The notes under the pieces are model-generated. The model was given only the letters and a program-made list of their open reading frames with translations, had not been told where the DNA came from and made no database searches. The position numbers and the translations under genes were made by a program. A stretch of 55,942 nucleotides of DNA from Frankia sp. R82 (lineage in GTDB: Bacteria > Actinomycetota > Actinomycetes > Frankiales > Frankiaceae), in NCBI RefSeq assembly GCF_023716925.1, contig NZ_JAMQQG010000281.1:1-55942 (forward strand). The letters are read 5' to 3'. This document shows, piece by piece, positions 7,617-42,945 of the stretch (within the stretch, counting starts at the first letter, position 1; each line of letters starts with the position of its first letter).

Positions 7617-8066
7617 ATGAAGCTCATCCTGACTCAGGAGGTCCCCGGGCTCGGCAGCCCGGGTGACATCGTTGACGTCGCGAACGGCTACGGGCGTAAC
7701 TTCCTGGTGCCGCGCAAGTACGCGATTCTGGCGACCCGGGGTGCGGAGCGCCAGGTCGAGCAGATCAAGCGGGCCCGGTCGGCTCGGGCGGTTCGCGACC
7801 TCGACCACGCCAAGGAGATCGCCGGCCAGCTCGGCGGCCTCAAGGTCGAGCTGACCACGCGTGCGGGCAAGGAAGGCCGGCTGTTCGGTTCCGTGACGGC
7901 GGCCGACGTCGTCACGGCCGTCACCGCCGCCGGCGGCCCCGATCTGGACCGTCGCCGGGTCGAGCTGACCACGCCGATCAAGACCCTCGGCGCGCACACC
8001 GTCGCGGTGCACCTGCACCCCGAGGTGACCGCGTCGCTGAAGGTCCAGGTCCGCAAGGCCTCCTAG
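7617..8066 (+). CDS. rplI: 50S ribosomal protein L9
   Basis: 149-residue L9. The N-terminal domain MKLILTQEVPGLGSPGDIV and VANGYGRNFLVPRKYA motif are typical, followed by the central helix and C-terminal domain. It starts 11 bp after rpsR with a GGGGGACC ribosome-binding site. Last gene of the operon; a strong hairpin starts one base after its stop. Confidence 0.96.
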   Translation: MKLILTQEVPGLGSPGDIVDVANGYGRNFLVPRKYAILATRGAERQVEQIKRARSARAVRDLDHAKEIAGQLGGLKVELTTRAGKEGRLFGSVTAADVVTAVTAAGGPDLDRRRVELTTPIKTLGAHTVAVHLHPEVTASLKVQVRKAS

Positions 8067-8099
8067 CCGTTGGCCTGACGCAGGTCGTCAGGCCAACGG
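8067..8099 (+). terminator. Hairpin terminator of the rpsF-rplI operon
   Basis: Perfect 14-bp stem (CCGTTGGCCTGACG and CGTCAGGCCAACGG) with a 5-base loop, starting immediately after the rplI stop. Only a short T run follows, as is usual for high-GC actinobacteria. Confidence 0.85.
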
Positions 8100-8268
8100 T
8101 TTCGCCGCCGGGCACCGAGAGGCACCTGGCGGGCGGGCATCAGGAACTCCCTCGGAGCCCCTGCCCCCACACAGGTGGGTAGGCGGGTGGCCCCGGGGGA
8201 GTTTCCGCGTTTGCGGGGGGATCTGCCGGGCGGGGGCGCGTCGGCCGGGAGTTTTTTCCCGCGGATTG

Positions 8269-8421
8269 TTATCCACATGCCGGCGGCTGGATGTGCGCGG
8301 CGTACCTGGGCTTCTGGCACCTTGTGGCCGGCGTTGTCCACAGGTGGACAGGGTCTGTCCCGAGCTTCTCCCCAGGATCCGGCCCGTTGTCCACATCTTT
8401 TCCACAAGGCCCTGTGGATAA
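8269..8421. promoter_or_regulatory. Cluster of five DnaA-box-like sites upstream of dnaB
   Basis: Five 9-mers fit the actinobacterial DnaA box TT(G/A)TCCACA: TTATCCACA at 8269-8277, TTGTCCACA at 8334-8342 and 8387-8395, TTTTCCACA at 8398-8406 on the plus strand, and TTATCCACA on the minus strand at 8413-8421. The last three are spaced 2-6 bp apart. The rest of the rplI-dnaB gap (8100-8605) has no convincing gene. Confidence 0.75.
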
Positions 8422-8605
8422 CTCTTTGGCGGTGGTGGCGCTGGTCCGTAGGGTCGGGGCCCGGACGCGCCTCGGCGCGCTCGGTTGACCACCCTCTCGG
8501 AATATACGAACATATGTTCGAAGGACGGGTGCGGTCAGACTGGCGCTCCACCGGCCCATGCTGGCAGGCCAGGTCGTGTCGGGAGTCGAGTCGGGAGGGG
8601 GCCTC

Positions 8606-10927
8606 GTGAGCGTCACCGAGATCTCGCGTGGCACGGGCGGTCCGGCGGAGTTCGACCGGACCCCGCCGCATGACCTTCCGGCCGAGCAGAGCGTGCTCGG
8701 CGGCATGCTGCTGTCGAAGGACGCGATCGCCGACGTCGTCGAGGTCCTGCGGATGGCCGACTTCTACCGGCCGGCTCACGGTCTCATCTACGAGGTCATC
8801 GGCGATCTCTACGGCCGCGGCGAGCCAGCCGACGTGATCAGCGTGGCGGCCGAGCTCAGCCGGCGGGACATGCTCGAGCGGGTCGGTGGCCCCGGGTATC
8901 TGCACACGTTGATCTCCAGCGTGCCCACCGCGGCGAACGCCGGCTACTACGCCCGTATCGTCGGCGAGAAGGCGATCCTGCGTCGCCTGGCCGAGGCCGG
9001 TACCCGCATCGTCCAGCTCGCCTTCGGCGCCGCGCCCGACGTCAGCGATGTGGTGGACCGGGCCCAGGCCGCGGTCTACGAGGTCACCGAGCGGCGCACG
9101 ACCGATGACTATCTCCCGCTGGGTGATCTGCTCAACCCGGCCCTGGAGGAGATCGAGTCGATCCAGGCGCACGAGGGGTCGCTCACCGGCGTGCCGACCG
9201 GCTTCACCGACCTCGACGAGCTCACCAACGGCCTGCACGCCGGCCAGCTGTGGATCGTCGCGGCCCGGCCGGCCGTGGGCAAGGCGTTGGCGCTCGACAC
9301 ACCGCTGCCCACCCCGAGTGGCTGGACGACGATGGGCCGCGTGGCCGTCGGTGACCAGCTGATCGGCGCCGATGGCCGGCCAACGCAGGTCGTGGCTGCC
9401 ACCGAGGTGATGCACGGCCGGCCATGCTATGAGGTCGAGTTCTCCGACGGGTCCGTGATCGTGGCTGACGCCCAGCATCAGTGGATCACCGAGACGAGAG
9501 ACCGTCGACGCATCACAACGGATCGATCAGATGGCCGGGTCCGAACGCTCACCCGGCCGGTCACGACGGAAGAGATCGCACGCACCCTCCGTTGCCAGAC
9601 GGCGGACGCTCGGGCCAACCACGCGGTGCGCAACGCCCGTCCTTTCCAACTCCCGACCGTCGAGCTTCCCCTGGACCCCTACCTGCTCGGAGCATGGCTT
9701 GGCGATGGCACGTCCACCACGGCCAGCCTGACCTCCACGGATCCCGAGATCTCCGCGGAGATCTGCGAAATAGTGCCGTCTCGGCTGCGCTCGTTGGGTG
9801 TGCTGGGAAACAAACACATCCCGGCTTCCTACCTGCGAGCCGCAGAGCAGCAGCGGCGCGATCTCCTGGCCGGCCTGCTGGACGCCGACGGCACCGTGTC
9901 AACCCATGGATCGACTGCCCGGTTCGCGTCGACCAGTGCGCGGCTTGCCCGAGATGTCCGTGAACTTATCCTTTCGCTGGGATACCGGGCGACTGTTTCG
10001 ACCAAGCGGGTGCAGGGCGGCTCGGAGGCGAGCTCCACCTGCTATTCGATTGATTTTGTGCCTCAGGAGCAGGTCTTTCGGCTGGCCCGCAAGGCACAGC
10101 GGCTGCAGCCGACCGGCTTTCCGGGGGTCGGCCTGCGCTGTATCACAGCCGTCCGGCCGATCGCGTCGGTGCCGGTCCGCTGCGTCGAGGTCGACAACAC
10201 GGATCATCTCTACCTGGCGGGCGAAACCTGCATTCCGACGCACAACTCGACTCTCGGGCTGGATTTTGCGCGGGCAGCGTCGATCAAGAACGGGATGACA
10301 TCGGTCATCTTCTCGCTGGAGATGAGCCGTCTCGAGATCACTATGCGGCTGCTGTCCGCCGAGGCGCGCGTGTCGCTGCAGAACATCCGCACCGGTCGGC
10401 TCACCGAGGACGACTGGGGCCGCCTGGCCCGGCGGATGGGGGAGGTGGCCGAGGCCCCGTTGTTCATCGACGACAGCCCGCATCTGACGATGATGGAGAT
10501 CCGGGCCAAGGCCCGCCGGCTCAAGCAGCGCAACGACCTGCGCCTGGTCATCCTCGACTACCTGCAGCTCATGTCGTCGCCGAAGAAGGTCGAGAGCCGC
10601 CAGCAGGAGGTCAGCGAGATCTCCCGGTCGCTGAAGCTGCTGGCCAAGGAGCTCGAGGTTCCCGTCGTCGCCATCTCGCAGCTCAACCGTGCCTCCGAGC
10701 AGCGTGCCGACAAACGCCCTCAGGTCTCCGACCTGCGCGAGTCCGGCAGCCTTGAGCAGGACGCGGACGCGGTCATCCTGCTCTACCGGGAGGACGCGGT
10801 GGAGAAGGAGTCCGCCCGGGCCGGCGAGGCCGATCTGATCATCGCCAAGCACCGTAACGGGCCGACCGGCACCGTCACCGTCGCCTTCCAGGGGCACTAC
10901 TCCCGCTTCGTCGACATGGCCAACTGA
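8606..10927 (+). CDS. dnaB: Replicative DNA helicase DnaB precursor containing an intein
   Basis: Hexameric 5'-3' helicase of the replisome. The 773-residue precursor consists of an N-terminal primase-interacting domain (HDLPAEQSVLGGMLL), the RecA-like ATPase with Walker A interrupted at ARPAVGK, a 321-residue intein, and the rest of the ATPase: SLEMSRLEITMRL, Walker B LVILDYLQLM, and SQLNR with DLRESGSLEQDAD. Removing the intein gives a 452-residue DnaB with an intact ARPAVGKST P-loop, the usual family length. GTG 8606 is chosen because GGGAGGGGG lies 5 bp upstream and the N-terminus then matches the family; an in-frame start at 8558 lacks this. Activity depends on splicing. Confidence 0.95.
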   Translation: MSVTEISRGTGGPAEFDRTPPHDLPAEQSVLGGMLLSKDAIADVVEVLRMADFYRPAHGLIYEVIGDLYGRGEPADVISVAAELSRRDMLERVGGPGYLHTLISSVPTAANAGYYARIVGEKAILRRLAEAGTRIVQLAFGAAPDVSDVVDRAQAAVYEVTERRTTDDYLPLGDLLNPALEEIESIQAHEGSLTGVPTGFTDLDELTNGLHAGQLWIVAARPAVGKALALDTPLPTPSGWTTMGRVAVGDQLIGADGRPTQVVAATEVMHGRPCYEVEFSDGSVIVADAQHQWITETRDRRRITTDRSDGRVRTLTRPVTTEEIARTLRCQTADARANHAVRNARPFQLPTVELPLDPYLLGAWLGDGTSTTASLTSTDPEISAEICEIVPSRLRSLGVLGNKHIPASYLRAAEQQRRDLLAGLLDADGTVSTHGSTARFASTSARLARDVRELILSLGYRATVSTKRVQGGSEASSTCYSIDFVPQEQVFRLARKAQRLQPTGFPGVGLRCITAVRPIASVPVRCVEVDNTDHLYLAGETCIPTHNSTLGLDFARAASIKNGMTSVIFSLEMSRLEITMRLLSAEARVSLQNIRTGRLTEDDWGRLARRMGEVAEAPLFIDDSPHLTMMEIRAKARRLKQRNDLRLVILDYLQLMSSPKKVESRQQEVSEISRSLKLLAKELEVPVVAISQLNRASEQRADKRPQVSDLRESGSLEQDADAVILLYREDAVEKESARAGEADLIIAKHRNGPTGTVTVAFQGHYSRFVDMAN
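9284..10246 (+). mobile_element. Class 3-type LAGLIDADG intein in the DnaB P-loop
   Basis: 321-residue in-frame insert between GK and STLGLDF of the Walker A motif. It begins with Ala instead of Cys or Ser and ends HN, followed by extein Ser. The three residues defining class 3 inteins are present: Trp67 (in DAQHQW), Cys300 (in RCVEVD) and Thr319 (in PTHN). Two LAGLIDADG helices are visible, LLGAWLGDG at 134-142 and LLAGLLDADG at 194-203, so a homing endonuclease domain is present and looks intact. GC content is slightly lower than in the extein, with more A/T third positions. Confidence 0.9.
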
Positions 10928-42180: not shown

Positions 42181-42945
42181 ATGGTCCTACCGGCAGACCC
42201 GGCATTACTGGCGCGCCCGGGCCTGCGGGAACGCAAGAAGGCGCACACCCGGGAGACGCTCCTCGCCGCGGCCAGCGAGCTGTTCACCGAGCGCGGCTAC
42301 GAGGCAACCACCGTCGAGGACATCGCCGCCGCCGCCGACGTCTCGCCGCGGACCTTCTTCCGCTACTTCCCGACCAAGGACGACGTGGTCAGCGAGATCT
42401 TCCGGACCGTCGGGTTCGGCGCACTCGTGGACGCCCGCCCGCTCGGTGAGCCGGCCGCCGTCTCGCTGCGCGCGTCGGCGTTCGTCCTGCTCCGGACGTG
42501 TGTGGACAACCGGGAGAAGTGCCTGGCCGTGCTGCGCATGGTCGCCACCCGGCCCGAGCTGCAGGCCCGCTTCGCGCAGGTGCAGCGGGAACGCCTCGAC
42601 GAGCTGGCCACCCTGGTCGCCGCGCGGCTGGGTGCCCCACCGGACCTACTGCGGGCCCGGCTGATGGCCAGCTGGACGCTCGCCACCGTCGACACCCTCC
42701 TGCTGGACTGGGGCGTCGCCGGTGGCGAGCCCGATCTGCTTGCCCTCGCCGAGGCGGCGTTCGACCAGCTCGAGCCCGCGCTCGGTGGGACGTCGGCACT
42801 CGGTGGGACGTCGGCGCTCGGTGGGACGTCGGCACTCGGTGGGACGTCGGCACTCGGTGGGACGACCGTGCCCGATGGGACGTCCGGAGCGGGTGGGACG
42901 TCCGGACCGGGCGGAACATGCGCGGACGGCCGGGCCCGTTCCTGA
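42181..42945 (+). CDS. TetR-family regulator, divergent from the MFS exporter
   Basis: 254-residue repressor with HTH RERKKAHTRETLLAAASELF, EATTVEDIAAAADVSPRTFF and RYFPTKDD, closely matching the TetR at 35150. The ligand domain runs to ~198. The C-terminal ~50 residues consist of tandem ALGGTS units and variants. ATG 42181 is chosen because it precedes the conserved region; a frame extension upstream is unlikely. Expected to repress the exporter and itself through the palindrome at 41988. Confidence 0.85.
   Translation: MVLPADPALLARPGLRERKKAHTRETLLAAASELFTERGYEATTVEDIAAAADVSPRTFFRYFPTKDDVVSEIFRTVGFGALVDARPLGEPAAVSLRASAFVLLRTCVDNREKCLAVLRMVATRPELQARFAQVQRERLDELATLVAARLGAPPDLLRARLMASWTLATVDTLLLDWGVAGGEPDLLALAEAAFDQLEPALGGTSALGGTSALGGTSALGGTSALGGTTVPDGTSGAGGTSGPGGTCADGRARS
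42778..42867 (+). repeat. Five 18-bp tandem repeats in the TetR tail
   Basis: Five contiguous copies of gc(a/g)ctcggtgggacgtcg encode ALGGTS; degenerate copies continue to about 42920. In-frame minisatellite. Confidence 0.92.

Follow-up and report, generated by a model that had tools for sequence, protein, structure and literature searches.

A conserved DnaA-box array upstream of dnaB in Frankia abuts a putative promoter and neighbours a LexA-type palindrome

Clusters of DnaA boxes outside oriC are found in several bacteria, with D78, H24 and H69 as the Streptomyces clusters and with datA, D78 and the Bacillus subtilis box clusters as examples of titration sites; the D78 cluster of Streptomyces coelicolor is reportedly a titration site. 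The Frankia cluster described here is likewise a group of several DnaA boxes that lies near oriC but not in it, as D78 is said to do. A further likeness comes from mycobacteria, where, according to PMC7738170, DnaA IDAP-seq on M. tuberculosis DNA yielded five strongly bound regions, one of them upstream of dnaB. The homologs of all five were recovered in vivo by ChIP-seq in M. smegmatis. The DnaA I282T variant is described in the same text as binding the dnaB promoter less and under-expressing dnaB, a correlation that could be indirect. The mycobacterial site (Rv0057 region) resembles that of Frankia in lying directly upstream of dnaB and not far from oriC, with binding shown in Mycobacterium and predicted in Frankia, whereas the Frankia boxes are more numerous and closer to the consensus (strict boxes were seen in 5/11 sampled loci of f4, the family that contains a Mycobacterium genome).

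In Caulobacter crescentus, dnaB carries predicted DnaA boxes and is a member of the DnaA regulon (PMC8203912; Hottes 2005, as cited in PMC8203912 and PMC7738170). The likeness to Frankia consists of the predicted boxes upstream of dnaB, and dnaB expression in Caulobacter is DnaA-dependent; however, the two organisms belong to different phyla with different box consensus sequences, and the comparison is one of descriptions only. A putative SOS box has also been placed upstream of M. tuberculosis dnaB (PMC8151990), similar in type and position to the palindrome found in Frankia. That DnaA binds upstream of dnaB is therefore already known from mycobacteria (PMC7738170), and the new part is the precise geometry. 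A literature search, mostly of papers open without subscription, returned no fixed box-promoter geometry, no DnaA/LexA pairing in Frankia and no Frankia case.

The window, that is, the whole 55,942-nucleotide stretch analysed here, belongs to a 6.9-Mb draft genome in 370 contigs (the own genome, G000). Within it, rplI and dnaB are separated by a gap of 539 bp (8067-8605, bounded by the stop codon of rplI and the dnaB GTG at 8606), and the features of this region are as follows.

7617-8066: rplI, ribosomal protein L9, confirmed by Pfam
8065-8101, plus strand: strong hairpin with a 16-bp stem (folding), a probable terminator
8269-8277, plus strand: DnaA box 1, TTATCCACA, exact; TTNTCCACA in 11/12 aligned Frankia sequences
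8334-8342, plus strand: DnaA box 2, TTGTCCACA, exact; TTNTCCACA in 8/12 aligned Frankia sequences
8366-8374, plus strand: TTCTCCCCA, a putative weak site that differs from the DnaA box TTNTCCACA by one base
8387-8395, plus strand: DnaA box 3, TTGTCCACA, exact; TTNTCCACA in 2/12 aligned Frankia sequences
8398-8406, plus strand: DnaA box 4, TTTTCCACA, first arm of a dyad with box 5; 11/12 Frankia sequences, 21/22 family loci
8413-8421, minus strand: DnaA box 5, TTATCCACA, inverted; 12/12 Frankia sequences, TGTGGAYAAC in 22/22 family loci
8426-8454, plus strand: putative dnaB promoter P1, TTGGCG (8426-8431), 17 bp, TAGGGT (8449-8454), proposed from conservation
8485-8490, plus strand: TTGACC, putative -35 of P2; TTGAC before the SOS-type box
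8507-8520, no strand assigned: LexA/SOS-type palindrome, CGAACATATGTTCG; GAACN4GTTC in 22/22 family loci, predicted LexA binding
8606-10927, plus strand: dnaB, replicative helicase (Pfam), interrupted by an intein; putative start codon

The putative GTG start of dnaB is preceded by GGGAGGGGG at 8593-8601. According to Pfam, DnaB is split by an intein with homing-endonuclease domains; these are of LAGLIDADG type, the insertion lies at the apparent Walker A motif (GK/A...HN/ST), and the first residue of the intein is Ala, as in class 3 inteins. The hairpin directly 3' of rplI is probably a transcription terminator, and its place after the rplI stop points to transcription of dnaB from promoters of its own. 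Folding of 8064-8240 as a whole gave a z of -6.2, and a second inverted repeat, GAACTCCC...GGGGGAGTT at 8143-8207, forms a long stem when folded and is recognisable in the aligned Frankia congeners. A known RNA element in the gap was also considered and set aside, as Rfam lists a tRNA alone in the window. An E. coli-type promoter and terminator scan of 8040-8640 found nothing; it reported no terminator at the rplI hairpin, nor did it report P1, its consensus being that of E. coli and P1 being of actinobacterial form.

The first-pass annotation had described five exact boxes within 153 bp, three of them within 35 bp, in the gap between rplI and dnaB, and these matches are seen as it stated. It had also judged them to exceed chance, and the counts bear this out: TTDTCCACA occurs six times in the window against 0.24 expected (100 shuffles, largest 3). 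The own genome holds 79 such sites, compared with 31 for the reversed pattern, and in 2000 rounds of random placement of these 79 no 153-bp span received more than two. Nor are boxes as frequent elsewhere, the condition under which that annotation would have given up its reading, since nowhere else in the draft genome do more than three fall within such a 153-bp span. The sixth site of the window is a lone TTGTCCACA on the minus strand (42501-42509). A functionless chance cluster can hence hardly be credited; it is rejected on the shuffles, on the random placement and on the conservation of the boxes across families described below. The sequence TTGTCCACA is given as a high-affinity DnaA box in M. 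tuberculosis and S. coelicolor (PMC4285127).

To follow the array within the genus, we aligned 12 Frankia sequences, the window and L034-L044, with L033 left out as it lies at a contig edge. The order and spacing of the array are kept in all 12, so that the conservation in related strains on which the earlier account had staked its claim does hold, with box 5 exact in 12/12. Steps of 65 and 64 bp separate boxes 1, 2 and 4 (8269, 8334 and 8398) in the window; in those congeners where all three are exact, the steps are 65-66 and 64 bp. The weak site at 8366-8374 reads TTCTCCCCA, TCCTCCCCA or TCATCCCCA across the 12 sequences, and the box 3 position is TTACCCACA or TTGCCCACA in most congeners. 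Mean column identity is 0.963 in the boxes (45 columns) against 0.763 outside them (205 columns), for sequences that are related and not independent. Beyond the genus, boxes 4 and 5 are the sole strict boxes in 10/14 family loci, and, as judged from the alignments, the most conserved part of the array is the inverted box 5 at 8413-8421.

For a wider comparison, 295 genomes of the class were searched, of which 293 gave a match, and upstream DNA was analysed for 110 loci, namely 30 default ones (22 from the Frankia family) and 80 chosen for spread among the matches listed, the families being unevenly sampled. The DnaB match coordinates served as the anchor, and 700 bp upstream were read (only 519 bp for L146). 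Strict TTNTCCACA was found within 700 bp upstream of dnaB in 86/110 loci from 23 families, 175 boxes in total, whereas 59 permuted-core patterns gave a mean of 1.4 hits over the 110 loci with a largest value of 19, which probably stems from true boxes read out of register, and the reversed pattern was present in 7/110 loci (1/92 in an earlier motif-anchored set). By family, the strict box occurred in 22/22 loci of f1 (that of Frankia), 18/18 of f15, 9/9 of f16, 4/4 of f21, 3/3 of f33, 7/8 of f17, 9/12 of f29, 5/11 of f4, 1/4 of f13 and 0/3 of f14, and in 8/16 loci of the other 13 families; the 24/110 loci without it include 6/11 of f4, 3/3 of f14 and 3/4 of f13. Among named relatives, for which the best 80 of 574 were taken, 67 had a strict box: 31/31 Streptomyces, 6/6 Nocardia, 4/6 Mycobacterium-labelled, 1/3 Mycolicibacterium and 0/2 Mycolicibacter in this best 80 of 574. 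DnaA boxes directly upstream of dnaB are conserved, and beyond chance.

Gene order offers a separate view of what the boxes belong to. In an rplI-anchored survey of 35 loci the dnaB motif was found in 19, the other 16 being uninformative on gene order. It lay more than 1.5 kb beyond rplI in 15 loci, and 12 of these had boxes 180-490 bp upstream of the dnaB motif; the three without a box near dnaB were L091, L116 and L118, and the separated locus L098 had two further boxes nearer rplI. Since the boxes stay with dnaB in 12 of the 15 separated loci, they mostly track dnaB and not rplI. Together with the hairpin after rplI, this disfavours the boxes as part of an rplI operon.

One promoter form of actinobacteria is TTGNNN/TANNNT. 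P1 is read as a promoter because it fits this form and is conserved, TTGGNG-17/18-TANGGT fitting 12/12 Frankia sequences, and only 4 bp separate box 5 from its putative -35. We have searched for this arrangement as a composite, defined as an inverted box with at most two mismatches, 2-7 bp, TTG..., 16-19 bp and TANNNT. It was present in 42/110 loci against 0-1/110 in each of ten shuffle rounds. All boxes were exact in the 21/22 f1 and 9/9 f16 loci that carry it, while the 5/8 f17 loci had one or two box mismatches; outside f1 and f16 it occurred in 12/79 loci, with an exact box in only one of those. The exact Frankia composite was not found in f4, a difference from Mycobacterium, and f15 had boxes in 18/18 loci with the composite in 0/18. 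Among the best 80 of 574 relatives, the composite was seen in 31/31 named Streptomyces loci, 30 of them with an exact box, and the box-TTG spacing there was always 5 bp. On sequence, the boxes stand at a fixed distance from the putative dnaB promoter in 21/22 family loci and in 31/31 named Streptomyces of that best 80 of 574, and other families differ.

Within whole genomes the exact composite lies at dnaB in each of four Frankia genomes, the sole extra site being in the own genome on contig C61; in the three other Frankia genomes it occurs once, at dnaB. The second site (G000:C61:8471-8597) combines the composite with a LexA-like palindrome and lies between frames that look, by eye, like a Ser/Thr kinase and a transposase.

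Several other groups of DnaA boxes were noted in the Frankia genomes. Four strict boxes in 45-47 bp steps lie upstream of a gene for a ParA-like ATPase (by eye) at L247 14735-14880 (G001:C1:7432669-7432814), about 65 kb from dnaA in G001. Three strict boxes with identical spacing occur in two genomes about 80 kb from dnaA (G001:C1:81800-81842 and G003:C1:80355-80397), adjoining an aminotransferase-like gene (by eye) in the former. The upstream side of dnaA carries an inverted pair TTGTCCACA-N3-TGTGGACAA at G001:C1:7497264-7497284, G003:C1:5432503-5432523 and G000:C5:2849-2869, and two strict boxes lie about 65 bp upstream of an inositol-1-phosphate synthase-like frame (by eye) at G001:C1:7466058-7466087.

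Downstream of P1, a conserved palindrome of CGAACN4GTTCG type stands at a promoter-like site in 22/22 family loci and 12/12 Frankia sequences, the latter all reading CGAACATNNGTTCG, and TTGAC precedes it at a near-fixed distance in 21/22 family loci. The distance from the palindrome to box 5 varies between 95 and 367 bp within the family, so the palindrome looks like a separate promoter; it probably marks a second dnaB promoter, P2, which is probably under SOS control. The own genome has four copies of CGAACATNNGTTCG and none of its reversed control; one of the other three copies is at a Ku-like start codon (by eye). Some 260 bp before the lexA open frame stands CGAACGGGAGTTCG, which shares its outer bases with the dnaB palindrome and differs in the inner four. 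Outside f1 an SOS-type palindrome precedes dnaB in 7/88 loci; within the best 80 of 574 named relatives it does so in 11, including Saccharomonospora, Prauserella, Amycolatopsis and Geodermatophilus, and in 0/31 of the Streptomyces. In comparison with LexA-controlled SOS promoters and with M. tuberculosis, the palindrome of the Frankia family is distinguished by its place at a second promoter-like site beside DnaA boxes. The initial account of this region had the DnaA-box cluster right; the promoter geometry and the LexA-type box were absent from it.

That account had also left two roles side by side for the cluster, namely titration of DnaA or a DnaA-responsive transcription of dnaB. The comparison favours transcription, because the boxes track dnaB, because a box abuts a promoter-like element at fixed spacing, and because of the mycobacterial binding described in PMC7738170. 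Titration is kept as a rival, according to which the cluster would mainly hold DnaA near the origin and lower the initiation frequency, with no role in dnaB transcription. By sequence the array is indeed a near-consensus box cluster outside oriC, with affinities that are predicted, and five such boxes seem beyond the need of one promoter. Strict boxes are also crowded near dnaA, with 30/62 in G001 and 20/57 in G003 falling inside the 100 kb next to the contig end at dnaA (the two genomes counted, with G005 left out), and in G001 some 44 kb separate rplI from dnaA. However, a pure sink would not require a fixed position against a -35, nor does it sit well with boxes that follow dnaB in the loci of other gene order or with the family loci outside the genus where the dyad boxes stand alone, and we consider it unlikely, although the extra boxes may add titration to the control of dnaB. 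A second or alternative replication origin is very improbable by comparison. The five strict boxes here do outnumber the three upstream of dnaN (contig C109), but in the relative G001 (400 kb) the cumulative G-C minimum lies 13 kb beyond dnaA, on the side away from dnaB, with that of T-A at 23 kb, and the skew runs on without a turn past dnaB, which lies 44 kb from dnaA in the opposite direction. In G001, then, neither a skew switch nor dnaA/dnaN adjacency marks this locus, and no AT-rich unwinding element was found beside the boxes: the most AT-rich 50 bp of the gap reach 50%, a value within the highest 1.3% for the window, whereas the dnaA-dnaN gaps of G001 and G003 reach 64%. A second origin is therefore rejected on AT content and on GC skew, the latter read from the relative G001 as the own assembly is fragmented.

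More difficult to separate from the preferred reading is the sign of the effect. DnaA oligomerises, and a filament spreading from boxes 4 and 5 over P1 could block its -35 and repress dnaB; a mere 4-5 bp separate the box from the -35, and dnaA autoregulation is reported for several bacteria (PMC8203912). On the other hand, both the -35 and the -10 are free of strict boxes, and in M. tuberculosis reduced binding of DnaA to the dnaB promoter accompanies lower dnaB expression (PMC7738170). Activation is favoured on these two grounds, that is, the strict boxes clear of the -35 and -10 and the result with the mycobacterial I282T mutant, and repression appears rather unlikely, with odds that overlap those of the best explanation since both concern the same control region.

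Taken together, the observed sequence, its conservation and its geometry lead us to infer DnaA and LexA binding in Frankia, the two promoters and the sign of the effect, and the region is best explained, with a probability of about 0.7, as a dnaB control region in which DnaA controls P1, with activation the likelier sign, beside a separate SOS-type P2. DnaA would bind the array at 8269-8421 and make its main contact with boxes 4 and 5, a dyad of close spacing that adjoins the putative -35 of P1; the centre of box 5 falls some 44 bp ahead of the expected start. The upstream boxes, with their 65- and 64-bp steps (8269, 8334 and 8398), would probably aid cooperative loading of DnaA, and DnaA bound at the dyad would act on P1, more likely activating it, such that helicase expression would follow active DnaA and hence initiation. 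P2, with its LexA-type box at 8507-8520, would probably raise dnaB expression on DNA damage.

A broader proposal, which we hold only tentatively, is that the inverted box abutting the dnaB -35 at 4-5 bp in Frankia and Streptomyces forms a nearly unique DnaA-dependent switch that couples helicase production to active DnaA, with variants of it over much of the actinomycetes, and that after DNA damage dnaB transcription passes to a second, LexA-controlled promoter in the Frankia family and in some further lineages. If this were true, the signals to initiate and to repair would converge on one gene, dnaB. The conserved geometry turns a vague box cluster into a precise promoter test, one that separates a role in transcription from titration. 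If the reading is right, DnaA would set the supply of the very helicase it must load, a feed-forward link that would extend over a wide range of actinomycetes.
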